From: Marine Group II euryarchaeote MED-G36
GTDB lineage: Archaea > Thermoplasmatota > Poseidoniia > Poseidoniales > Thalassarchaeaceae
Assembly: GCA_002457595.1 (NCBI GenBank)
Contig: NTJR01000002.1
Coordinates: 1 to 45,767 of the forward strand
Length of the DNA: 45,767 nucleotides
Reading direction: 5' to 3'
Shown here: piece by piece, positions 3,667 to 14,383 of the stretch
Layout of the letters: every line of letters starts with the position of its first letter
Position numbering within the stretch: the first letter of the stretch is position 1
Notes under the pieces: model-generated
What the model was told of the DNA's origin: nothing
The model's input: the letters and a program-made list of their open reading frames with translations, nothing else
Database searches by the model: none
Program-made: the position numbers and the translations under genes

Positions 3667-5220
3667 TCACAAAGGAATGTTTCCGTGCTTACGTGCGGGT
3701 CTAATTTCTTCCTTTTCTAGTAGTGCCCCAAGAGCCTTAGACAGTTTTTCTCTTGTGTTTCTTGGCTGAATTACATCATCTAGATATCCTAAGGATGCTG
3801 CTCTATACGGGTTTGCAAATGTGTCCTCATAATCCTCAATGAGTCTTTTTCTCTCTCCTTCTGGATCGCCAGCGCTGTTGATTCTTCTTTTGTGAATAAT
3901 TTGTACAGCACCTTCGGCACCCATTACTGCCAATTGAGCTGTAGGCCAGGCAATATTGTAATCGCCACGAATGTGTTTGCTAGACATGACGTCATAAGCG
4001 CCCCCATAGGCCTTGCGAGTAATTACTGTGAGCTTGGGCACGGTCGCTTCGGCATATGCGTAGAGTAATTTTGCACCGTGTCGGATAATCCCCCCCCATT
4101 CTTGACTGGCTCCAGGGAGAAAACCAGGTACGTCGACGAATGTAAGCAGTGGGATATTGAACGCATCACAAAACCGTACGAATCTAGCAGCCTTAACTGA
4201 AGCATCTATGTCTAGACAACCTGCTAGGACTTTGGGTTGATTTGCTACAATACCTACTGTGTGGCCTCCTAAACGTCCAAATCCTACTACAATATTTTGT
4301 GCATAATCAGCTTGTACTTCAAGGAAGGCGCGATCATCTAGTATTTCTTCAACAGCGTCAATGATATCGTAGGGCGTGGAAGGGTCTTCAGGAACTAATT
4401 CATCCAAAGATTCGCAAATCCTATCGGAAGGGTCAGATGTAGGTTTTATTGGTGGTTTCTCTAGATTGTTTAACGGAATCAGGTTTACTAATTCTCGAAC
4501 TAGATCAAGTGCCTCATCATCATTTCCTGCCGTGAAGTGAGTGACACCTGAACGTGTTGCGTGTGTGGACGCTCCACCGAGATCTTCGAAAGAGACTTCT
4601 TCGTTCGTCACGGTTTTGATTACCTCAGGTCCTGTAATGAACATGTGAGACGTATTATCAACCATTACTACAAAATCTGTAATTGCAGGCGAATAGACTG
4701 CACCACCAGCACAAGGGCCCATTATTACTGAAATTTGAGGTATAACTCCACTTGCGCGAACATTGCGGAAGAAAATTTCAGCATACGAACCTAGACTTGC
4801 TACTCCTTCCTGGATTCTAGCCCCGCCACTATCATTTAGTCCAATTATGGGGGATCCTGTCTTTAGAGCCATATCTAGGATTTTACAAATTTTTAGTCCA
4901 TGCATCTCACCTAATGATCCGCCATAAACTGTAAAATCCTGTGCGAAGCAATATACAGTTCTTCCTTCAATAGTTCCGTGCCCACAAACAACTCCATCCC
5001 CAGGTATTACATTACGGTCCATTTCGAAGTCTCGACACCTATGTTCGACCAATGCGTCAACTTCTACAAAGCTTCCATCATCGAGTAATTGCTCTACTCG
5101 CTCACGCGCAGTCATCTTTCCACGGTTGTGTTGTGCGGCTATTCTTTTCTGGCCGCCGCCAGCTTCTGCTTGCGCCTTACGGCGCCGCAAGTCATCAATG
5201 CGCTCCTCCACACCAGACAT
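3667..5220 (-). CDS. pccB: Propionyl-CoA carboxylase carboxyltransferase (beta) subunit
   Basis: This 517-residue protein is the biotin-dependent carboxyltransferase that moves CO2 from carboxybiotin onto propionyl-CoA (possibly also acetyl-CoA), giving methylmalonyl-CoA. It has the two tandem crotonase-like halves of the family. The N half includes [17 protein letters not shown] (about 35-51), [11 protein letters not shown] and [12 protein letters not shown], the first oxyanion loop. The C half includes VDVPGFLPG and [13 protein letters not shown], the second oxyanion loop. Length and order match PccB/MmdA. It is the first gene of the minus-strand group and faces the B12-binding mutase gene across 119 bases, supporting a methylmalonyl-CoA pathway role. 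Methylmalonyl-CoA decarboxylase alpha has the same fold but would need a sodium-pumping beta subunit, which is absent here. Confidence 0.9.
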
Positions 5221-5339
5221 GAGTTAGCCTGCAACGATGCTAGCCCGCCCATGAGCATTCCTGAAAAGCAAGCAGATTCAATATCCATTCAATCGGTTGT
5301 TTGAAGGCCACCATCTGATTCCAAGATACGGACTGAACC

Positions 5340-5780
5340 ATGCGAATCGTTGTTGCTAAACCCGGTTTAGACGGTCATGACAGAGGGGCGAAGGTGATTG
5401 CTAGGGCTCTAAGGGATGGAGGGCACGAGGTAATTTATACCGGTTTAAGACGTACTCCTCAAGAGATTGTCAGGATAGTTACTGATGAAGATGCAGCCGC
5501 TGTCGGCCTTTCCACTCTTTCTGGTGCTCACAACGTATTAATTCCAAAGGTGTGTGATGGTTTACGCGAGGCAGGACTAGGTGATGTCGTGGTTTTTGCT
5601 GGTGGAATTATTCCTGAACAAGACCGTTCTCCCCTATACGAGAAAGGTGTTAGAGCTATTTTTGGCCCAGGTTCAACAACAAAGAGTATTCTAGAGTTCT
5701 TAGAAATGGTTTCTTCTCGGAAGAAAGCCGCAGAGTCAGTTGGTGTTGGTGAACAGATAGGTTGGCGCTGGAATGAATGA
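5340..5780 (+). CDS. mcmA2: Methylmalonyl-CoA mutase, B12-binding subunit
   Basis: This 146-residue protein is the separate cobalamin-binding (C-terminal) subunit of methylmalonyl-CoA mutase, which interconverts methylmalonyl-CoA and succinyl-CoA. The signature DxHxxG is present as DGHDRG, with H13 as the lower cobalt ligand, followed by the Rossmann-like elements GLSTLSGAH and FAGGIIPEQD. Archaea often encode this domain apart from the catalytic subunit, which is not in the window. No Shine-Dalgarno is seen before the ATG, suggesting a leaderless or short-leader message. Its last 8 bases overlap the meaB gene, so the two are probably translated together. Confidence 0.92.
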   Translation: MRIVVAKPGLDGHDRGAKVIARALRDGGHEVIYTGLRRTPQEIVRIVTDEDAAAVGLSTLSGAHNVLIPKVCDGLREAGLGDVVVFAGGIIPEQDRSPLYEKGVRAIFGPGSTTKSILEFLEMVSSRKKAAESVGVGEQIGWRWNE

Positions 5781-6645
5781 AACGACCTCTCTATTCGAAT
5801 CTGCCAAATCAGGGGATCGCCGTGCATTGGCTAGATTGCTTAGTGTCCTTGAAGAGGGCGGCACCTCTCCTGTAGAGAATGGTTCTGGAGATTCAATTGG
5901 AATAACTGGCCCTCCCGGTGTTGGTAAATCCACGCTCATTGGCAAGTTAATTGACGAATGGGTTTCCAGAGGTGAGACCGTAGCAGTATTGGCTATTGAC
6001 CCCTCGTCGCCTCAGACAGGTGGGGCATTGCTCGGAGATCGTATGCGTATGGTGAATGCTGATTCTTCAGATGGTATTTACGTGCGTTCACTAGCTACAA
6101 GAAATCATCCAGGAGGTTTAATGGATTGTTTGACTCCCATGGTCGACGTTCTTTGTGCATGTGGATGGGATCACGTTGTTCTCGAAACCGTCGGAGCAGG
6201 TCAATCAGAAATCCGAGTTGTTGCTTTTGCTAATCGGATTATTCTCGTTGATGGTCCCGATAGGGGTGATGTGATTCAAGCAGAGAAGGCAGGGATAATG
6301 GAATTGGCAGATTTGATTGTAATCAATAAAGCCGATCTTCCTAACGCCAATAGAGCAGCCGAAGCGGTCAAATCTGCCCTCTCTGCTGGTTCTAATATTG
6401 ATGTGCCTGATGTGTTATTGGTCTCCGCACATAGTTCTATGGGGGTTTCTGAATTAGTCGATTCAATCACCGAATTACAATCCTCCAAAGACCGTGAGCG
6501 ATTAAGAATTAGAGAGCGGCTTATTTCAGCATGGGATTCGGCTTTACTAACCTCTAATCTATTCGATGAATCAATTAGAGCAATAGAGACCGGAAATATG
6601 ACACTCAATCAAGCAGTCGGACATATCAGAGATAAATCAAATTGA
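5773..6645 (+). CDS. meaB: MeaB/ArgK-type G3E GTPase, mutase chaperone
   Basis: This 290-residue GTPase protects and reactivates methylmalonyl-CoA mutase and gates cobalamin loading. Visible motifs are the Walker A loop GPPGVGKST (46-54), DPSSPQTGGALLGDRMRM (about 76-93), the LETVGAGQSE segment typical of MeaB (about 136-145), and NKADLP for guanine specificity (about 180). It overlaps the B12-binding subunit gene by 8 bases, which strongly supports the pairing. It is somewhat shorter than bacterial MeaB (about 330), mostly at the termini. The older name ArgK/LAO transport ATPase is not supported by this context. Confidence 0.93.
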   Translation: MNETTSLFESAKSGDRRALARLLSVLEEGGTSPVENGSGDSIGITGPPGVGKSTLIGKLIDEWVSRGETVAVLAIDPSSPQTGGALLGDRMRMVNADSSDGIYVRSLATRNHPGGLMDCLTPMVDVLCACGWDHVVLETVGAGQSEIRVVAFANRIILVDGPDRGDVIQAEKAGIMELADLIVINKADLPNANRAAEAVKSALSAGSNIDVPDVLLVSAHSSMGVSELVDSITELQSSKDRERLRIRERLISAWDSALLTSNLFDESIRAIETGNMTLNQAVGHIRDKSN

Positions 6646-7533: not shown

Positions 7534-7833
7534 CTAACGCTCTGAGTTGTCCTGCTCAACTTCATTTACATTTGATTCAAGTAATTCCATTCCAACGATT
7601 TCATAATTAGAAGGAAATAGAGCAATGAATACTGCTCCTATAATGGAAGCTAATCCAAGATAGAACTGTTCTTGTACCATAATTAGTTCTAGACCAATAG
7701 CGAAGAGAATTAGCCCCCCTAGATTAGAAACCCAGACTAGTGTTTTGTATGTCGATAAACCGACACCTTTGCTATTTTCTGTTCTTTTCGGTCCGAATTC
7801 AGCCCCGAATCTTACTGGTTCTTTGTCAGCCAT
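7534..7833 (-). CDS. Small two-span membrane protein
   Basis: I do not recognise this 99-residue protein. It has two predicted transmembrane helices at about 32-50 (VWVSNLGGLILFAIGLELI) and 58-72 (LGLASIIGAVFIALFP), a charged N-terminus and an acidic C-terminal tail. AGGTGA precedes the ATG. The stop of the ferredoxin gene lies only 4 bases upstream, so the two are co-transcribed, and it may tether or accompany that ferredoxin at the membrane. It lies at the downstream end of the respiratory locus. Confidence 0.65.
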   Translation of the reverse strand: MADKEPVRFGAEFGPKRTENSKGVGLSTYKTLVWVSNLGGLILFAIGLELIMVQEQFYLGLASIIGAVFIALFPSNYEIVGMELLESNVNEVEQDNSER

Positions 7834-7837
7834 AATA

Positions 7838-8170
7838 TCACCTATCTATCATTATAATCGCATCAGTTGGACAGGCAAGAACGCATAATTTACACCCAGT
7901 GCATGGTTCGCGTAGAATCCTTGCTTTTTTATTTACTTCAACTTTCATAATTGGACTTGCTAGAGGAGTGTCATACAGTTCTATTGCATCATCATCACAG
8001 ACGATAGTGCATTGATCGCATCCAATGCATAATTCTTCTTTCACCCATGCTACTGCATCATCGCCCCCTTTCAATTTGGCACGCTCTTCTGCACGTAAGG
8101 AATTCATTGCCATTCTTATACGACGTTGTTCCTTTTTGCGTCTAGCAGCAAGGTCCGGAATGTCAGTCAT
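7838..8170 (-). CDS. Dicluster 4Fe-4S ferredoxin domain protein
   Basis: This 110-residue protein has two 4Fe-4S motifs, CIGCDQCTIVC (about 48-58) and CTGCKLCVLACPTDA (about 91-105), preceded by a basic 35-residue N-terminal extension (ARRKKEQRRIRMAMN). The first motif lacks the usual proline after its fourth cysteine (CDDDAIE) but keeps all four ligands. It probably transfers low-potential electrons in the cytoplasm. Its position next to the cytochrome b-Hdr-like fusion makes it a candidate electron partner of that complex. No Shine-Dalgarno is visible and 364 bases separate it from the fusion gene, so it may have its own promoter. Confidence 0.82.
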   Translation of the reverse strand: MTDIPDLAARRKKEQRRIRMAMNSLRAEERAKLKGGDDAVAWVKEELCIGCDQCTIVCDDDAIELYDTPLASPIMKVEVNKKARILREPCTGCKLCVLACPTDAIIMIDR

Positions 8171-8534: not shown

Positions 8535-11315
8535 TTAGGGTTTCTTGGCATTTACTTGACGTGCTAGGAAGGATACAACATCGAGGATTTCAAAGTCATG
8601 TCGGGGATCGCCTTCAAATTTCAAGCACTCAAAGTGACTGACACACTTAGGACATGAAGTCAACATAATTTCAGCTCCAGTTGCCTTTACTTCGTCGAAG
8701 CGTTCGATACGAACAGCTCTACTGTTTTCGTTACACGACATCATACTTGAAACACCGCAGCACAAAGCATCTTCTCCTGAATGTTCCATCTCAACTAGGT
8801 CAACTCCGTCTATTGCTCGAATAAGATCTCTAGGTTCTTCATAGAGGTTCATCTGGCGTCCTAATCTACAAGGGTCATGAAAAGTGACTGTCATCTCTTC
8901 AGGAGTTTCCAAATTCATGTCAAATCCATTCTCAATAAGATACTCAGTAGTGTGCATGACTTTCATATCATCTAGCTCATAATCCATTGCAAAAGTTCTG
9001 AAACATTCAGCACATGAAGTGACTAATGTGTCAATTCCACTCTCTCCTAGTTTCTTCTGATTGTAAACCTTAAGTTTTTCAAATACTTCAGTCATGCCCT
9101 GCCACTTCTGGTCGTGGCCACAGCACTTTAGGAAATCTCTACCAAGATAAGTTACTTCCTTCCCCATTTCTTCGAATAGAGTGAATGCTGCCTCTGTAGT
9201 TTCTCCAAGGTTCATTGAACCTTCATTGACATGGCTGAAAATCATTTCTTGATCGATATAGTCCACACAGCCAGGATAGTATCCTACACTTGAGTCAATA
9301 GGATACTCACCTACAGGGATAAATGCCTCATCAGCACCCTCTTCTGCTTCAGCGGCAAGTAGAGCCTGCAAAACGGTGTGAGGGATTTCCGCAGCCGGTG
9401 GCCCTCCTACTATCAGATTACGTCGGATATCAACGTATGAATCATAGTCAACTAATTGTGGACATGCATTTGTACAGGCGCCACAGGTCAGGCATGAATA
9501 AAGTGGAACTCCATCATTTTCGTTATTCCATGTGTTGTAAATGATGTTGAGTTTATCTCCAGCGTTGAATAGACGAACAGGACAGGCATCATCACAAAGA
9601 TCACATCCGTAACACATGTTCATTTCCCATTCATATCCACGAGCCATACTGCGCATCAACATGAATACCATTGCGCCAATTCCTAGGCAAGGAATGAACA
9701 TTGAATAAATTAATTTAGCATCAAGACTTTTTGGATTCTTTTGGAAGGTTGGATTTTCAAGCATCATCTCACTTAAATCGGACCCACTAGGTAGTGAATC
9801 TCTGTTTACTATAGCCCCTCCTTCATCTAGTAGTAGAGGTTGGAATGCTACTGCGGAGAAATCTGTAATCATTGTCACACTTTCATTTACATCCTCTGAG
9901 TGTACAGAATATTCTAGATTATATGAAGCATCAGTTGATAGTTTAAGGGTGGTACTCTCACATTCACCATCCGTTTTCCAAATCTCTTCTCCTGCTTCAT
10001 CTGAAAGTGTAAGAGTTTGTTGATGTGTTCCTGCATTTCTAACCGTTGTTCGGAAATTACAACCAATATCAACAAATACAGTTGAGACTCCTAAATCCTC
10101 AATATACATTGTATCGGACCAAGTATCTGAAATTTCTGTAGAATCAGAATTCCCCATATAACTAAAATCTGCTCCAGCAGCATTTCTTCCAGTTTCTTTG
10201 TCGAGATGTCCATTTACTCCTTCAAAATCAATGACGATATTTTGAGTTGGCTGGAAAATGCTCCATTGAGTCCAATGAATAGCAGGAATTACACACCATT
10301 TGGATAAATCAGCTCCTTCGTCTAACTCATGCCAAACTTCCAGTCCAGAACTGTCTGAGAAGGTCAGACATTCATCTCGCCATTCAGACTTGACATTCCC
10401 TTTCTCATAGTAAACCAGAGTGTCTGCCGGTTGCCCGCGCATATTTTCCAGATCCTCAATTTCATCCATGGCCCCAAGGCCGCCATAATCCCAAAAACCA
10501 CCTTCGTAGATTGGCCACGTTACTGCTGAAATCAGTACGGCAATAACAAGAGTCCCAATTGCAACTTGCTTCCCCATTGATGAAGTGACCCTGGCTCCTA
10601 TGGAATTAACCAAGAACCATTTCACTGCAAAATACAATACTGCAAATATGAATATCCCTGTCAATACCCAAGGGATTGCGTTGAATACTTCTGCAGTCCA
10701 AGGGGCCTGTCTGCCACATAAGAATTCGTGATGTGAATCAGCCCAACAGTAGTCAGAACGGTCTTTCGCATATAATTCTAAGAAAATATTGATTGAAAAT
10801 ACTGATATGAACCATACATGAGCAAGGTAAACGGCTCCTGCTGTTGCAAACCATGGGTCTTCTACAGGGCGCTTTTCGCGACCTCCTAAGAATGGCGGGA
10901 GCGTTAGTATTCCAACAGGAATCCCTGTCAGTGCAGCCCCCCACCATGCAGCATTCCAAGAAATTACAGGAGAGCCGAGGAATTCGCCGATAGGTCCTGC
11001 AGGAATGACGAATTGAGGCAGATACTCTCCCCAGCGCAAGTAACCGTATGAGAATAGTACATACCAGTCAGGGAAAACAAATCCTGCTTGTGCGAATGGA
11101 TCTGCAGCACTATGCAGTGGAGGGGGGATTAACCAGCAGTAGAACGCGAGAACCATTAGCATAGCAGCTAGAATTATCGTATCTCGTAAGACCTCAGAAG
11201 GCCAGAAAGGATGGCCCATATGGATGCGTTGCCTTTCCTCCTCTGATTCAAGGAGGGTTGATTTCTCACGCATATAAGTGTCAGCGATACGCCCAAATCT
11301 GTCTATCATACTCAT
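8535..11315 (-). CDS. Fusion: cytochrome b C-terminal (subunit IV-like) domain + membrane/ectodomain + HdrD/GlpC-like Fe-S module
   Basis: This 926-residue protein joins modules that are normally separate. Residues about 35-110 resemble subunit IV (the C-terminal half of cytochrome b), with PDWY at 82-85 in place of PEWY, the quinol-site motif. Further helices follow at about 125-147, 160-182, 214-234 and 250-270. Residues 270-535 form a soluble, probably external, region without an obvious family. A helix at about 534-556 leads to a cytoplasmic part with two 4Fe-4S motifs (C568-C578 and C608-C618). Two CCG domains follow (C683, C731-C732, C768/C771 and C816, C852-C853, C888/C891), the hallmark of HdrD/GlpC/LldE heterodisulfide-reductase-like subunits. 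GGAGGTCATGAC precedes the ATG. It follows cytochrome b and Rieske genes, so it is probably the second b subunit of a quinol-oxidising complex that also exchanges electrons with a cytoplasmic partner. Confidence 0.85.
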   Translation of the reverse strand: MSMIDRFGRIADTYMREKSTLLESEEERQRIHMGHPFWPSEVLRDTIILAAMLMVLAFYCWLIPPPLHSAADPFAQAGFVFPDWYVLFSYGYLRWGEYLPQFVIPAGPIGEFLGSPVISWNAAWWGAALTGIPVGILTLPPFLGGREKRPVEDPWFATAGAVYLAHVWFISVFSINIFLELYAKDRSDYCWADSHHEFLCGRQAPWTAEVFNAIPWVLTGIFIFAVLYFAVKWFLVNSIGARVTSSMGKQVAIGTLVIAVLISAVTWPIYEGGFWDYGGLGAMDEIEDLENMRGQPADTLVYYEKGNVKSEWRDECLTFSDSSGLEVWHELDEGADLSKWCVIPAIHWTQWSIFQPTQNIVIDFEGVNGHLDKETGRNAAGADFSYMGNSDSTEISDTWSDTMYIEDLGVSTVFVDIGCNFRTTVRNAGTHQQTLTLSDEAGEEIWKTDGECESTTLKLSTDASYNLEYSVHSEDVNESVTMITDFSAVAFQPLLLDEGGAIVNRDSLPSGSDLSEMMLENPTFQKNPKSLDAKLIYSMFIPCLGIGAMVFMLMRSMARGYEWEMNMCYGCDLCDDACPVRLFNAGDKLNIIYNTWNNENDGVPLYSCLTCGACTNACPQLVDYDSYVDIRRNLIVGGPPAAEIPHTVLQALLAAEAEEGADEAFIPVGEYPIDSSVGYYPGCVDYIDQEMIFSHVNEGSMNLGETTEAAFTLFEEMGKEVTYLGRDFLKCCGHDQKWQGMTEVFEKLKVYNQKKLGESGIDTLVTSCAECFRTFAMDYELDDMKVMHTTEYLIENGFDMNLETPEEMTVTFHDPCRLGRQMNLYEEPRDLIRAIDGVDLVEMEHSGEDALCCGVSSMMSCNENSRAVRIERFDEVKATGAEIMLTSCPKCVSHFECLKFEGDPRHDFEILDVVSFLARQVNAKKP

Positions 11316-11330
11316 GTCATGACCTCCATA

Positions 11331-12197
11331 TCAATGCGGCTCCGCGATTCCTTGAACCCAGACTATGAATAAATGAACCAGGATAAGTCCTGTAACTACA
11401 ACTGGAAGGATGAATACATGCAGGAAATACATTCTTGTTACCGTTTGACCAGATAGGGAAGTTCCTGCAAACATTGCAGTTGCCACCCAACTTCCTATGA
11501 GAGGTGTCGAGTTTGCCATATTGATTCCAATAGTAGCCGCGCCGAAAGCAAGACTATCCCAAGGTAGAAGGTATCCTGAGTATCCAAAGAAAATGGTGAA
11601 GAACATTAGAGCAACTCCGATTAGCCAATTTAGCTCTCGAGGATTTCTGTATGCCCCTGTGAAGTATACTCTGCACATATGGAGGAATACTGCTGCAACC
11701 ATGAAGTGGGTTGCCCAATGATGAATCGATCTGATTATGTATCCAAATGGTAATTGTGTCATTATGAATTCCATTGATGAGTACGCAGGAGTAGGGTCCC
11801 CTTCTCCTCCTGGGACGTAGTAAAGACCTAGGATCGTACCTGTGATTACCAGAATAATGAATGCGAGGAAGGAAATACCTCCAAGGCAATATAGAGGATA
11901 CCAATACCAGATAATACGTAATTTGTATTTTTCCGCATGAGTTAGAGGCATTTGGCGATGCATACTATAGTACGATTCTCTACTCATACTCCAATAGTCT
12001 TGGAGTCTAAATCGAGTGTCTAACCATGAGAATGCCCAGAGAAACGATTTCTCAGCCAACCCCATGCTTCCTGCACTAGTCTCAACAGCCCTCAAGATAT
12101 CTTTGCGAGGCATTTCTTCACGTTCTTTTCTTAATGTAAATGCTACAAGCACAACAACAAGTGTGATGAAAAGCCAAAGGAACCAGAATTGTAGCAT
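11331..12197 (-). CDS. Cytochrome b (b6-type N-terminal half)
   Basis: This 288-residue protein binds the two b hemes of a bc/b6f-type quinol oxidoreductase. After an extra N-terminal helix (about 2-22) and a charged 70-residue region come four core helices. Heme ligands are H159 and H173 (in SIHHWATH...FLHMCRV) and H260 and H275 (FLHVFILP...VLVH-type). The second pair is 15 residues apart, as in b6-type proteins, rather than 14 as in mitochondrial bc1. GYSGYLLPWD (about 205-214) is the conserved Qo-region motif. The protein ends where cytochrome b6 ends; the missing C-terminal half is in the next gene. The ATG at 12197 is chosen over GTG at 12206 because GAGGTG lies 6 bases before the ATG and would be covered by the earlier start. 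Confidence 0.92.
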   Translation of the reverse strand: MLQFWFLWLFITLVVVLVAFTLRKEREEMPRKDILRAVETSAGSMGLAEKSFLWAFSWLDTRFRLQDYWSMSRESYYSMHRQMPLTHAEKYKLRIIWYWYPLYCLGGISFLAFIILVITGTILGLYYVPGGEGDPTPAYSSMEFIMTQLPFGYIIRSIHHWATHFMVAAVFLHMCRVYFTGAYRNPRELNWLIGVALMFFTIFFGYSGYLLPWDSLAFGAATIGINMANSTPLIGSWVATAMFAGTSLSGQTVTRMYFLHVFILPVVVTGLILVHLFIVWVQGIAEPH

Positions 12198-12203
12198 ATT
12201 TTT

Positions 12204-12209
12204 CACCTC
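12204..12209 (-). promoter_or_regulatory. Shine-Dalgarno GAGGTG deciding the cytochrome b start
   Basis: GAGGTG is 6 bases before ATG 12197 and overlaps the Rieske stop codon region. The same GAGGT(G) form precedes most internal genes of this operon, so it favours the ATG over the upstream GTG. Confidence 0.6.
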
Positions 12210-13059
12210 AGTCGCAGTATGTATACCAGTCTTTGAAATCCGGCAGGGCTTCTATTGAGTCTCCTGATAAAACCCAGGGGATTAGGGGTAATCCTACAGG
12301 TGTTGGCCCCCCAGTTCTTCTAATTCCTATGAAATCGAACTCTGCTCCAGTTGAACGATTCCTGTTTCTATTTTTCTCAATTGCAGTAGGGTCGAATCTA
12401 CTGGAATGACAAATGCAGAATAATTTGTTTCCGCCGGCATCAACTGCTCCGGGCGTCCATTGTTCTTCAGTAAAACTGTTCTGAACAAGTTGCCAACCAG
12501 GGATGCAGCATAAGTGTGGACAACGAGAGAAAATGACAATTAGATTATCATGAATTGATAATATACTGTATTCTGGCTCCTCAATCTCATACCCACTACC
12601 TACGTATTTTCCGCTTTCTGTATAACCATCTAGAAATTGAAATCTTGGCTGATTTGTGACTAGGGGTGCATTCACATTCTCTGAGTGTGGCACGTACATT
12701 ACATTGACTGGAAGTCCTGACCACACACCTTGGGCTCCTGCCATTCCGGTAGAACTAGCCGCAGATGCACTTACAAAAGCAGAATACGACATTGGTTCTA
12801 AGTGTCTATCTCCATACCAAGTAGAATCTTCAGCACCTGTAGGTACCCAAAACCGAACTGCAGTGTCTCCTCCTGAAGAATCTGCAGTACCCATTAGGAG
12901 AGAAGCAAAACCAATGCTGCCCAAACTTGCCATTGTGATTACGCCTGCGGCGGTATTGAATGAATATCGCATGAATTCTCTACGATCAAGAACCGGATTA
13001 TTCTCTTCCACGCTCTCTTCAGCACCAGGTATTGGTCGGAGTCGGAATCGTCTTGCCAT
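12208..13059 (-). CDS. Rieske 2Fe-2S protein of the bc/b6f-type complex
   Basis: This 283-residue protein carries the 2Fe-2S cluster that takes the first electron from quinol. Both boxes are present: CPHLCCIPGW (ligand Cys and His, plus the disulfide Cys) at about 187-196, and CICHSSRF at about 225-232. An N-terminal DRREFMRYSFNTAAG followed by a hydrophobic stretch (about 36-57) looks like a Tat-type membrane anchor with a twin-arginine motif. The region between anchor and cluster domain is longer than in typical Rieske proteins and contains a 100-residue insertion rich in Ser/Tyr/Gly. GAGGTGTGATAG precedes the ATG. It is co-transcribed with cytochrome b (10-base gap). Confidence 0.93.
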   Translation of the reverse strand: MARRFRLRPIPGAEESVEENNPVLDRREFMRYSFNTAAGVITMASLGSIGFASLLMGTADSSGGDTAVRFWVPTGAEDSTWYGDRHLEPMSYSAFVSASAASSTGMAGAQGVWSGLPVNVMYVPHSENVNAPLVTNQPRFQFLDGYTESGKYVGSGYEIEEPEYSILSIHDNLIVIFSRCPHLCCIPGWQLVQNSFTEEQWTPGAVDAGGNKLFCICHSSRFDPTAIEKNRNRNRSTGAEFDFIGIRRTGGPTPVGLPLIPWVLSGDSIEALPDFKDWYTYCD

Positions 13060-13062
13060 CTA

Positions 13063-13515
13063 TCACACCTCGTACTGTTGCCACCCTTCTGGGTCATTAG
13101 GAGTAATGTATTTGTTTCTCCTATGCTTTACGATAATTAAATCCGGCATTACGAATCTCATATAGACGACCCCCATCATAATTACAGTTAGTAAAGTCAT
13201 TGCAAGATGGAATGATAGTTGTTGTTGATCCCAATGGTTGAACAAACCGTAGGAGAGAGTTCCTGCCCAGTATAGTGTCCACAAAATACCCCATAGAGCA
13301 AATACTAGAATCAACCATGAATCTCCAGATGGTGAAATGCTAGCTCGGACAATTGTTCCTGGTTCGGGTTCATCAAATACTCCATGATCTACTGCCGCAT
13401 TATAAGTGTCCTCACTTAGACTTACTTCCTCAAGTGCCTTGCGAGCATCATCAACGCTAACCTTTCCAGATTTTACTTCTCGTAAGAGTTTCAAAACCAT
13501 GTCATCCTTCATCAT
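13063..13515 (-). CDS. Two-span membrane protein of the respiratory operon
   Basis: This 150-residue protein is not a family I recognise. Residues 1-45 are a charged helical segment (LLREVKSGKVSVDDARKALEEV) like a small SHOCT/short helical-hairpin module. Two transmembrane helices follow at about 69-88 (WLILVFALWGILWTLYWAG) and 103-122 (LAMTLLTVIMMGVVYMRFVM), then a basic cytoplasmic tail. Its start overlaps the stop of the upstream gene (ATGA) and it ends 3 bases before the Rieske gene, so it is almost certainly a subunit or assembly partner of the cytochrome complex. Confidence 0.75.
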   Translation of the reverse strand: MMKDDMVLKLLREVKSGKVSVDDARKALEEVSLSEDTYNAAVDHGVFDEPEPGTIVRASISPSGDSWLILVFALWGILWTLYWAGTLSYGLFNHWDQQQLSFHLAMTLLTVIMMGVVYMRFVMPDLIIVKHRRNKYITPNDPEGWQQYEV

Positions 13516-14324
13516 TGGTCACCTCTGCGTGAATGTTTCATGCGTAGTTTGAGTAAATTACTGCGGCCAGAATAGTTTTCCGAAATTCCATATCTAAGGA
13601 AAAGTCCACAGAAAATAATGACTAGAATTACTGCGCCAAAGCCTAGGAGACCTAACCAGTGAGCGCGCAGTGCAGCCCCCATTTCATGTAAATCTACATG
13701 GATTTCGGAAGGAGCAGGAGGGGTGATTTCTCCATTGCCACTGAATACTGTTCTAGTCTCACCATTGTCTTCACCCTCATCGATTGATGTTATTAATCGG
13801 TTCCAGCGGTCTAAATCAGATGGTATTCCGTCTCCATTGACTGCATTTCCTGCAAGCCAAAACGTCGTAATCCCAGTGCCGCTATCGGGAGCGGTCCAGA
13901 CTACATGCCAAGTTCGTTCGGCATTCTCTGCACCGGATCCACTGTGAGTCATTGTTGTCGAATCATCATCCCAATGGTGGGTTTCACTCTCGTATCCTTC
14001 TGCAGCGGCGAGAGTTCCAAAACTAACTCTCATGGAAAATCCACCCGCGTTTGATGTAGTGTCGATAGTGGGGCCACCAATAATTTGTATTTTCAGTTCG
14101 TAAGATGTGCCTGCTGAGTAATGATATGGTACTCCTTCGAGAATTAGTGTGACAGAATTATCTGGTAATTCAGAATGGCAAGTGCAACCAGCAACCGAAA
14201 CGTCTCCATTACCATCCTCATCACCTCCAATACCTGTGGAATAGGCTTGTGTTGAACCCGCCAGAAGCAAGGCGAAGCAAGTTAGAGTGAGTAGCCTTCT
14301 TGAGGTCAAATGATGCATCTTCAT
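13512..14324 (-). CDS. Secreted, C-terminally anchored protein with a CxCH motif (Reeler/choice-of-anchor type)
   Basis: This 270-residue protein has a signal peptide (about 1-27, LLTLTCFALLLAGSTQA) and a C-terminal helix (LGLLGFGAVILVIIFCGLFL). The mature N-terminus contains AGCTCHSEL, a CxCH motif that looks like a degenerate cytochrome c site but has only one residue between the cysteines. The following beta-rich domain (about 50-190) resembles Reeler-type domains found behind heme motifs in bacterial surface proteins. It heads the respiratory operon, so an electron-acceptor role for the Rieske protein is plausible but unproven. The ATG at 14324 is supported by GAGGTC upstream and by the signal peptide starting there, against a start 48 bases earlier. 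Confidence 0.75.
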   Translation of the reverse strand: MKMHHLTSRRLLTLTCFALLLAGSTQAYSTGIGGDEDGNGDVSVAGCTCHSELPDNSVTLILEGVPYHYSAGTSYELKIQIIGGPTIDTTSNAGGFSMRVSFGTLAAAEGYESETHHWDDDSTTMTHSGSGAENAERTWHVVWTAPDSGTGITTFWLAGNAVNGDGIPSDLDRWNRLITSIDEGEDNGETRTVFSGNGEITPPAPSEIHVDLHEMGAALRAHWLGLLGFGAVILVIIFCGLFLRYGISENYSGRSNLLKLRMKHSRRGDQ

Positions 14325-14329
14325 CTTAT

Positions 14330-14335
14330 GACCTC
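14330..14335 (-). promoter_or_regulatory. Shine-Dalgarno GAGGTC for the CxCH protein
   Basis: GAGGTC sits 5 bases before the ATG at 14324 and identifies it as the start, immediately ahead of a basic n-region and the signal peptide. Confidence 0.55.
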
Positions 14336-14383
14336 TAATGACGGTACATTCCACCGGACTTCGGGCTATCAACGTTTCAGTTT

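Follow-up and report, generated by a model that had tools for sequence, protein, structure and literature searches.

Subunit IV of a complex III variant fused to an HdrD-like iron-sulfur arm in Poseidoniales, a candidate entry point for ferredoxin electrons

We describe here a gene cluster in a 45,767-nucleotide stretch of DNA from Marine Group II (MGII) euryarchaeote MED-G36 (order Poseidoniales; GenBank assembly GCA_002457595.1, contig NTJR01000002.1; hereafter 'the window'), in which a single gene encodes both the C-terminal half of a cytochrome b and an iron-sulfur (Fe-S) module resembling that of heterodisulfide reductase (Hdr). The gene order, kept in nearly all eligible loci, is: a protein carrying a CxCH motif, a two-transmembrane (two-TM) protein, a Rieske protein, cytochrome b, the fusion, a ferredoxin and a second two-TM protein (coordinates in the table). 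Counting only those loci with enough flanking sequence, the fusion is linked to cytochrome b in 79/79 cases, to the Rieske protein in 75/75, to the first two-TM protein in 72/72 and to the CxCH protein in 69/69; for the ferredoxin and for the small last gene the figure is 74/75 each.

The fusion occupies a single ATG-started frame of 926 amino acids on the minus strand, with the plus strand of the same stretch crowded with stops. A match to the protein was found in 146/146 Poseidoniales genomes; most are full-length (residues 1-925, one frame, 0 internal stops) and these span 21 genera and both families of the order, whilst partial matches mostly run into the end of a contig, and in a few genomes a distant paralogue is all that matches. 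A second collection, of metagenome-assembled genomes (MAGs) and single-cell genomes, again yielded full-length fusions. Since it is full-length in both families, and in numerous MAGs and single-cell genomes that are independent of one another, an assembly join can be ruled out as the origin of the fusion. A few genomes, G025 and G117 among them, carry it as two same-strand pieces on one contig, which are most simply frameshifts or sequencing errors; no genome of the order consistently has two genes here, the interruptions being contig ends and these few frameshift-like breaks only.

Taken alone, the window protein gave no cytochrome b or subunit IV match in a Pfam scan, and phmmer returned weak matches only (cytochrome b6f subunit IV, 0.0027). 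A profile built from 23 relatives and run against the PDB with hmmsearch, on the other hand, recovered bc1 cytochrome b (8.3e-11) and b6f subunit IV (2.1e-9) over residues ~25-157, and a homologous fusion (L198) itself matches PF00032 (7.8e-10) and the b6f subunit IV model TIGR01156 (1.4e-7). The arginine preceding helix G and further subunit IV positions are also kept in the alignment. On sequence criteria, then, residues ~32-178 are a true subunit IV, or cytochrome b C-terminal, region. An AlphaFold2 (AF2) model of this region alone was of low confidence (59.5), and Foldseek with that low-confidence model returned no match.

Hydropathy places membrane-spanning segments of the fusion near residues 46-64, 127-145, 157-179, 213-231, 251-269 and 535-553. 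The N-terminus of subunit IV is cytoplasmic; if that of the fusion is too, it follows that the ectodomain would lie outside and the Fe-S part inside the cell. In the AF2 model of the full fusion the ectodomain and the CCG domains are well predicted; two stretches, residues 52-84 and residues 559-648, are poor, with predicted local distance difference test (pLDDT) scores under 50. For the ectodomain, Foldseek gave a weak match to a GOLD-like fold (p24 GOLD domain, 2.5e-4), and Cys419 and Cys452 are kept in 36/36 of the proteins that possess the domain. In one lineage lacking the Fe-S part (L203, 7994-9733), subunit IV carries an inserted ectodomain without an Fe-S arm, such that ectodomain and arm appear to be independent additions.

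The arm itself (residues 560-926) has the architecture of HdrD (HdrC plus HdrB), in which a dicluster is followed by two complete CCG motifs: Pfam reports the dicluster at 564-620 and two CCG domains (4.6e-23). All eight dicluster cysteines (C568/571/574/578/608/611/614/618) are invariant in 38 diverse sequences, and so is Glu770 within the CAEC motif; the CCG cysteines are invariant too, the only departures being one masked base and, in L104, C732S. Across 107 distinct arm proteins, all with CAEC, the first CCG domain has CC in 98 and CS in 9; the nine with serine as the second cysteine are L104 and most of Marine Group III (MGIII, our label for family f3, which shares the class of the Poseidoniales but belongs to another order). 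The closest solved relative by sequence is EtfD (3e-22), which also heads the Foldseek matches of the arm model (1.1e-13), ahead of LutA and HdrB. The best NCBIfam model for the fusion is TfrB, at 106.6 bits far below its cut-off of 385. No HdrE-type cytochrome b partner accompanies the fusion, its partner being a bc-type cytochrome b, and on this evidence we do not assign it to HdrD. Conservation of the ligands suggests the types of cofactor that the arm would hold.

A preliminary description of the window, made from its letters alone, had proposed most of this composition, and it holds up well. The chain of 926 residues is indeed intact, and full-length in both families; the PDWY-bearing region, including its residues 35-110, is recognised as subunit IV-like by the profile; the extra helices and 'roughly 265-residue' ectodomain correspond to ~260 residues (~270-530) left by hydropathy and predicted to be extracytoplasmic; the two 4Fe-4S motifs and two CCG domains are found by Pfam, with invariant cysteines; and domain matches agree with a b6-type cytochrome b and Rieske protein upstream and a ferredoxin downstream.

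Table. Features of the fusion and of its gene cluster in the window
Feature	Position	Strand	Basis or remark
Fusion protein	8535..11315	minus	926 aa: subunit IV-like cytochrome b C-terminal half + TM pair + ectodomain + TM + 4Fe-4S dicluster + two CCG domains
Subunit IV-like region, residues 32-178 (helices E, F, G; Qo-side PDWY)	10782..11222	minus	hmmsearch vs PDB
PDWY motif (residues 82-85), corresponding to the Qo-site motif PEWY	11061..11072	minus	invariant in alignments
Extra TM hairpin, residues 205-271	10503..10703	minus	in Poseidoniales; absent from MGIII and from L193/L198 fusions
Extracytoplasmic beta-rich domain, residues 272-529 (predicted)	9729..10502	minus	AF2 pLDDT mostly 80-93
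Last TM helix, residues 530-557, returning the chain to the cytoplasmic side	9645..9728	minus	hydropathy, AF2
HdrC-like 2x[4Fe-4S] dicluster, residues 561-626, beginning at junction motif YExxMNxC	9438..9635	minus	Fer4_9 6e-8
CCG domain 1, residues 678-790 (C683, C731-C732, C768-A-E770-C771)	8946..9284	minus	Pfam, alignment
CCG domain 2, residues 808-898 (C816, C852-C853, C888-P-K-C891)	8622..8894	minus	Pfam, alignment
Cytochrome b, b6-type N-terminal half	11331..12206	minus	PF00033 5.9e-42
Rieske protein, twin-arginine motif, boxes CPHLCC and CICH	12208..13059	minus	TIGR01416 3.8e-9
Two-TM protein, 150 aa, conserved accessory subunit	13063..13515	minus	distant similarity to DUF7318
Membrane-anchored extracytoplasmic protein (choice-of-anchor V domain), conserved CxCH	13512..14372	minus	NF041895 1.8e-25
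RnfB-like 2[4Fe-4S] ferredoxin, proposed donor to arm	7838..8170	minus	TIGR01944 rnfB 1.8e-11, below cut-off
Two-TM protein, 99 aa, conserved last gene of cluster	7534..7833	minus	74/75 loci

Of the neighbouring gene products, cytochrome b retains its four heme ligands as His pairs (H162/H176 and H263/H278) that are invariant in nine MGII and MGIII sequences. No cytochrome c1 or f was identified in the cluster; the linked extracytoplasmic protein carries CxCH (79/82 loci) rather than CxxCH, and is perhaps, judging from this motif, a counterpart of cytochrome c1/f or a remnant of one. A GCxCH form, in which the motif is one residue shorter than the heme c signature, is conserved in choice-of-anchor V proteins of MGII, MGIII and a class without the arm (e.g. 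L155, 1050-1811; L201, 6490-7392). The RnfB-like ferredoxin is a protein of 110 aa with a score of 44, against an RnfB cut-off of 68.7. Beyond the cluster, genes of propionyl-CoA/methylmalonyl-CoA metabolism (carboxylase, B12-binding mutase subunit, MeaB) adjoin the operon at 3667-6645, as they also do in L043 and L107, two loci of related Poseidoniales.

Comparison with other Thermoplasmatota shows that the arm comes in several arrangements. MGIII, the sister order, has the same operon with the arm split over two genes, the first encoding subunit IV and the dicluster and the second the two CCG domains, with no ectodomain. A second class of the phylum (5 genomes, the complex occurring in 3) has the chain in fused form, again without ectodomain; the L193 fusion (789 aa) is 41% identical to the window protein in the arm and 37% in subunit IV, with the corresponding values for the L197/L198 fusion (606 aa) being 36% and 30%. 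Subunit IV without any Fe-S part is found in a third class (7 genomes, one a fragment) and in G402 and G494. The C-terminus of these arm-less subunits reads GYExKLNxxYYxxR or similar and aligns with YExxLNxCYxC, the junction in the fused proteins, and the arm is thus placed exactly on a conserved n-side (cytoplasmic-side) tail. As the arm is divided between two genes in MGIII, and lineages without it exist, we regard it as a module that has been added to, or lost from, an otherwise normal complex III; the cytochrome b tree is unrooted, since bacterial and haloarchaeal outgroups failed on account of long branches, and does not set the direction of this change. A haloarchaeal plasmid cytochrome b/Rieske operon that we examined has no CCG protein. 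Two cytochromes b, in L198 (788-3613) and L193 (10086-11975), have long N-terminal extracytoplasmic repeats that look Ig-like by eye, and the first part of the L198 protein resembles the CxCH protein, with C-x5-CH.

A second feature co-segregates with the arm. Within cytochrome b, C107 of the motif YCLGG is the counterpart of Cys35 of cytochrome b6, the ligand of heme c_n. Every Poseidoniales cytochrome b that includes the motif region has C..GG, as do those of L193 and L197/L198; in MGIII the GG is accompanied by cysteine (genera g24 and g25, about half of MGIII) or serine (g23). In seven arm-less lineages the cysteine position is instead S, T or A, accompanied by GS, and never cysteine. In a cytochrome b tree computed without the motif, arm-bearing and arm-less lineages lie on opposite sides of a branch supported at 100/99. 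The association between arm and cysteine is suggestive at the level of sequence, and the cysteine would be consistent with a heme c_n in the complex. In b6f this extra heme, at the Cys of YCLGG, has been postulated to be a conduit from ferredoxin to plastoquinone (PMC9342900).

What lies downstream of the arm points to the same kind of electron carrier. The MGIII counterpart of the ferredoxin is a 'double' protein, the C-terminal part of which is RnfB-like and the N-terminal part zinc-ferredoxin-like (NF041165, 1.9e-18, below cut-off; best match, the zinc-containing ferredoxin of Thermoplasmatales). A flavodoxin (PF00258, 7.5e-27 and 6e-27) takes the place of the zinc-ferredoxin-like domain in two MGIII genomes, giving flavodoxin/RnfB-like ferredoxin fusions (L157, 8004-8993; L223, 3946-4935). 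Since flavodoxin and ferredoxin are alike only as low-potential carriers, we take this swap to be a strong, if indirect, sign that the arm's partner is a carrier and not a disulfide. In L193 the arm is followed by a four-cluster ferredoxin, and in L198 the fusion is directly followed by an HdrA-like gene (5435-6382, cut by the contig end; FAD plus Fer4; HdrA2, 2.1e-17), possibly forming an HdrABC-type module on complex III. Ferredoxin-dependent 2-oxoacid oxidoreductases (POR/KOR) are present in 13/13 genera tested and NuoF was not found in 35/39 genomes, such that reduced ferredoxin needs an outlet for its reoxidation.

Synthesising these observations, we think it fairly probable that the cluster encodes a variant of complex III into which an entry for ferredoxin (or flavodoxin) electrons is hard-wired, at the n-side quinone site; the donor, the direction and the order of the path are what we infer. 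Electrons from 2-oxoacid:ferredoxin oxidoreductases would reduce ferredoxin, or flavodoxin in some MGIII, which would then pass them to the RnfB-like ferredoxin subunit; from there the path would lead over the CCG clusters, and next the two cubanes, to the cytochrome b heme on the n side (b_n/c_n), and quinone would be reduced at the Qn site, with the resulting quinol being oxidised at Qo by the Rieske protein and its electrons delivered to a high-potential acceptor. Transfer from ferredoxin to quinone is energetically downhill. The preliminary description had envisaged a quinol-oxidising cytochrome b/Rieske complex joined to a cytoplasmic HdrD-like module, which the fusion and its gene linkage confirm, and had left its partner as a disulfide or an electron carrier: the neighbouring genes favour the carrier and not the disulfide. 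It also had the electrons leaving the complex, a direction that our analysis does not support; they more likely flow into it.

Several points weigh against this proposal. At the membrane/arm junction the AF2 models are of low quality, and hence offer no usable cluster-to-heme distance; the ferredoxin gene may lie up to 416 bp from the fusion and, in the single-contig complete genome L161, does not adjoin it. The comparison of arm-bearing with arm-less lineages effectively amounts to one phylogenetic contrast, and the heme c_n cysteine is not universal even among the former, MGIII genus g23 having serine. A complex I without NuoEFG could also accept electrons from ferredoxin. Lastly, both CCG domains have more Hdr-like cysteines than EtfD, which leaves some room for a catalytic disulfide role.

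That role, in which the CCG pair would be a heterodisulfide-reductase-like site, and quinol bifurcation at Qo would send low-potential electrons along the arm to a cytoplasmic disulfide, is the best surviving alternative, albeit in our estimation an unlikely one. Both CCG domains carry near-complete HdrB-type cysteine sets (CC and CxxC) in the 98/107 distinct proteins mentioned above, HdrB is among the structural matches of the arm, and TfrB, the best family model, is a thiol-linked enzyme, though its score is far below cut-off. Set against this, the serine in CCG domain 1 of most MGIII and L104 is comparable to Thr539 of EtfD, and the invariant Glu770 stands where EtfD has the ligand His583 (PMC13083937); the partner genes encode ferredoxin and flavodoxin; and oxygen sensitivity is to be expected of open Hdr-type sites (PMC13083937), yet the hosts are described as obligate aerobes (PMC6336850).

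The kinship with EtfD raises another possibility, namely that the arm is an EtfD/EMO-type dehydrogenase of electron-transferring flavoprotein (ETF), feeding electrons from beta-oxidation into complex III. ETF subunits occur in 18/18 genera, a canonical ETF-quinone oxidoreductase (ETF-QO) is practically missing, and the adjoining propionyl-CoA genes would fit. Poseidoniales, however, have a separate full-length EtfD homologue (5.3e-106 to 9ojn); it is most probably this paralogue that serves ETF, and we reject ETF dehydrogenation as the main role of the arm; moreover, the ligands of the paralogue are CS/CN ... CPHC as against CC/CS ... CAEC in the arm, and the operon is linked to a ferredoxin and not to ETF. 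Few genera gave a FixX-like match (PF05187); they include g3 and g7, in which the homologue is mostly absent, as if the two routes substitute for each other. Overall, we hold this function for the arm to be quite improbable. The EtfD homologue (~670 aa; NarI-like TM part, dicluster and two CCG domains) was seen in L140, L142, L144, L145 and L146 (Poseidoniales) and in L131-L137 (MGIII). Least convincing, and to our minds very doubtful, is the reverse use of the arm, whereby quinol oxidised at Qo would give one electron to Rieske/O2 and the other to ferredoxin or flavodoxin in a respiration-driven reduction: Qo chemistry does yield one low-potential electron per quinol, for which the arm offers an exit, and an HdrA-like flavoprotein gene adjoins the L198 fusion, but by general bioenergetics quinol would have to deliver about -400 mV, which is marginal even if Rieske/O2 serves as the sink, and POR/KOR already supply the hosts with reduced ferredoxin.

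If ferredoxin does enter complex III in this way, it would explain how ferredoxin is reoxidised after the 2-oxoacid oxidoreductases in very abundant marine archaea, as well as two apparent oddities of MGII, reported to have RnfB without the rest of Rnf (RnfACDEG), and cytochrome b and Rieske proteins without a canonical complex III (Tully 2019; PMC6336850); the RnfB-like protein is most simply a subunit or partner of the complex III variant, and not of Rnf. Work on cyclic electron flow in photosynthesis has long asked whether ferredoxin passes electrons directly to enzymes of this type, and entry by way of heme c_n is only postulated there (PMC9342900); a ferredoxin-linked Fe-S wire on subunit IV, in lineages with the heme c_n cysteine, would make the idea testable on one complex. 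The functional idea has a precedent in Candidatus Angelarchaeales, where Diamond et al. (2022) reported genes resembling hdrD and rnfB next to those of complex III and suggested ferredoxin entry (PMC9038741). The open-access literature that we searched contains no report of the fusion, nor of such a ferredoxin shortcut built into one chain, and relative to it the new elements appear to be the fusion, its spread, its division over two genes in MGIII, the replacement by flavodoxin and the link with heme c_n.

Set beside known systems, the complex resembles b6f and bc1 in its split cytochrome b (b6-like N-terminal and subunit IV-like C-terminal halves), its four heme-ligand histidines and its Rieske protein, with PDWY replacing PEWY and a b6f-type Cys in YCLGG; the n-side ferredoxin entry has likewise been postulated for b6f (PMC9342900). 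It differs from both in that subunit IV runs covalently into a cytoplasmic portion with two cubanes and two CCG domains, and that of Poseidoniales also contains an inserted ectodomain, with no cytochrome c1/f in evidence. Angelarchaeales share with Poseidoniales their phylum and the pairing with complex III; the short passage concerned, compared by description, is without the subunit IV fusion, Poseidoniales/MGIII, the heme c_n link and the flavodoxin swap (PMC9038741). The solved structure of EtfD shows a wire that runs from the cytoplasm to menaquinone and contains one linear and one noncubane cluster; Thr539 and His583 stand there in place of Hdr features (PMC13083937). EtfD/EMO (9ojn) has the closest solved fold and the same succession of two CCG domains, dicluster, membrane heme and quinone, but its membrane domain is a five-helix, single-heme one, it has no Rieske partner and it accepts electrons from ETF; T539 and H583 correspond to C732 and E770 of the arm, the membrane part of which is subunit IV. 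Like HdrDE, HdrABC, QmoC and DsrMK, the complex joins an HdrC+HdrB-type module to a b-type cytochrome; in those systems, however, the cytochrome is of the HdrE/NarI type and not a Rieske-partnered, bc-type one. Its make-up therefore lies, as the preliminary description had held, outside the standard bc1, b6f and Hdr complexes.

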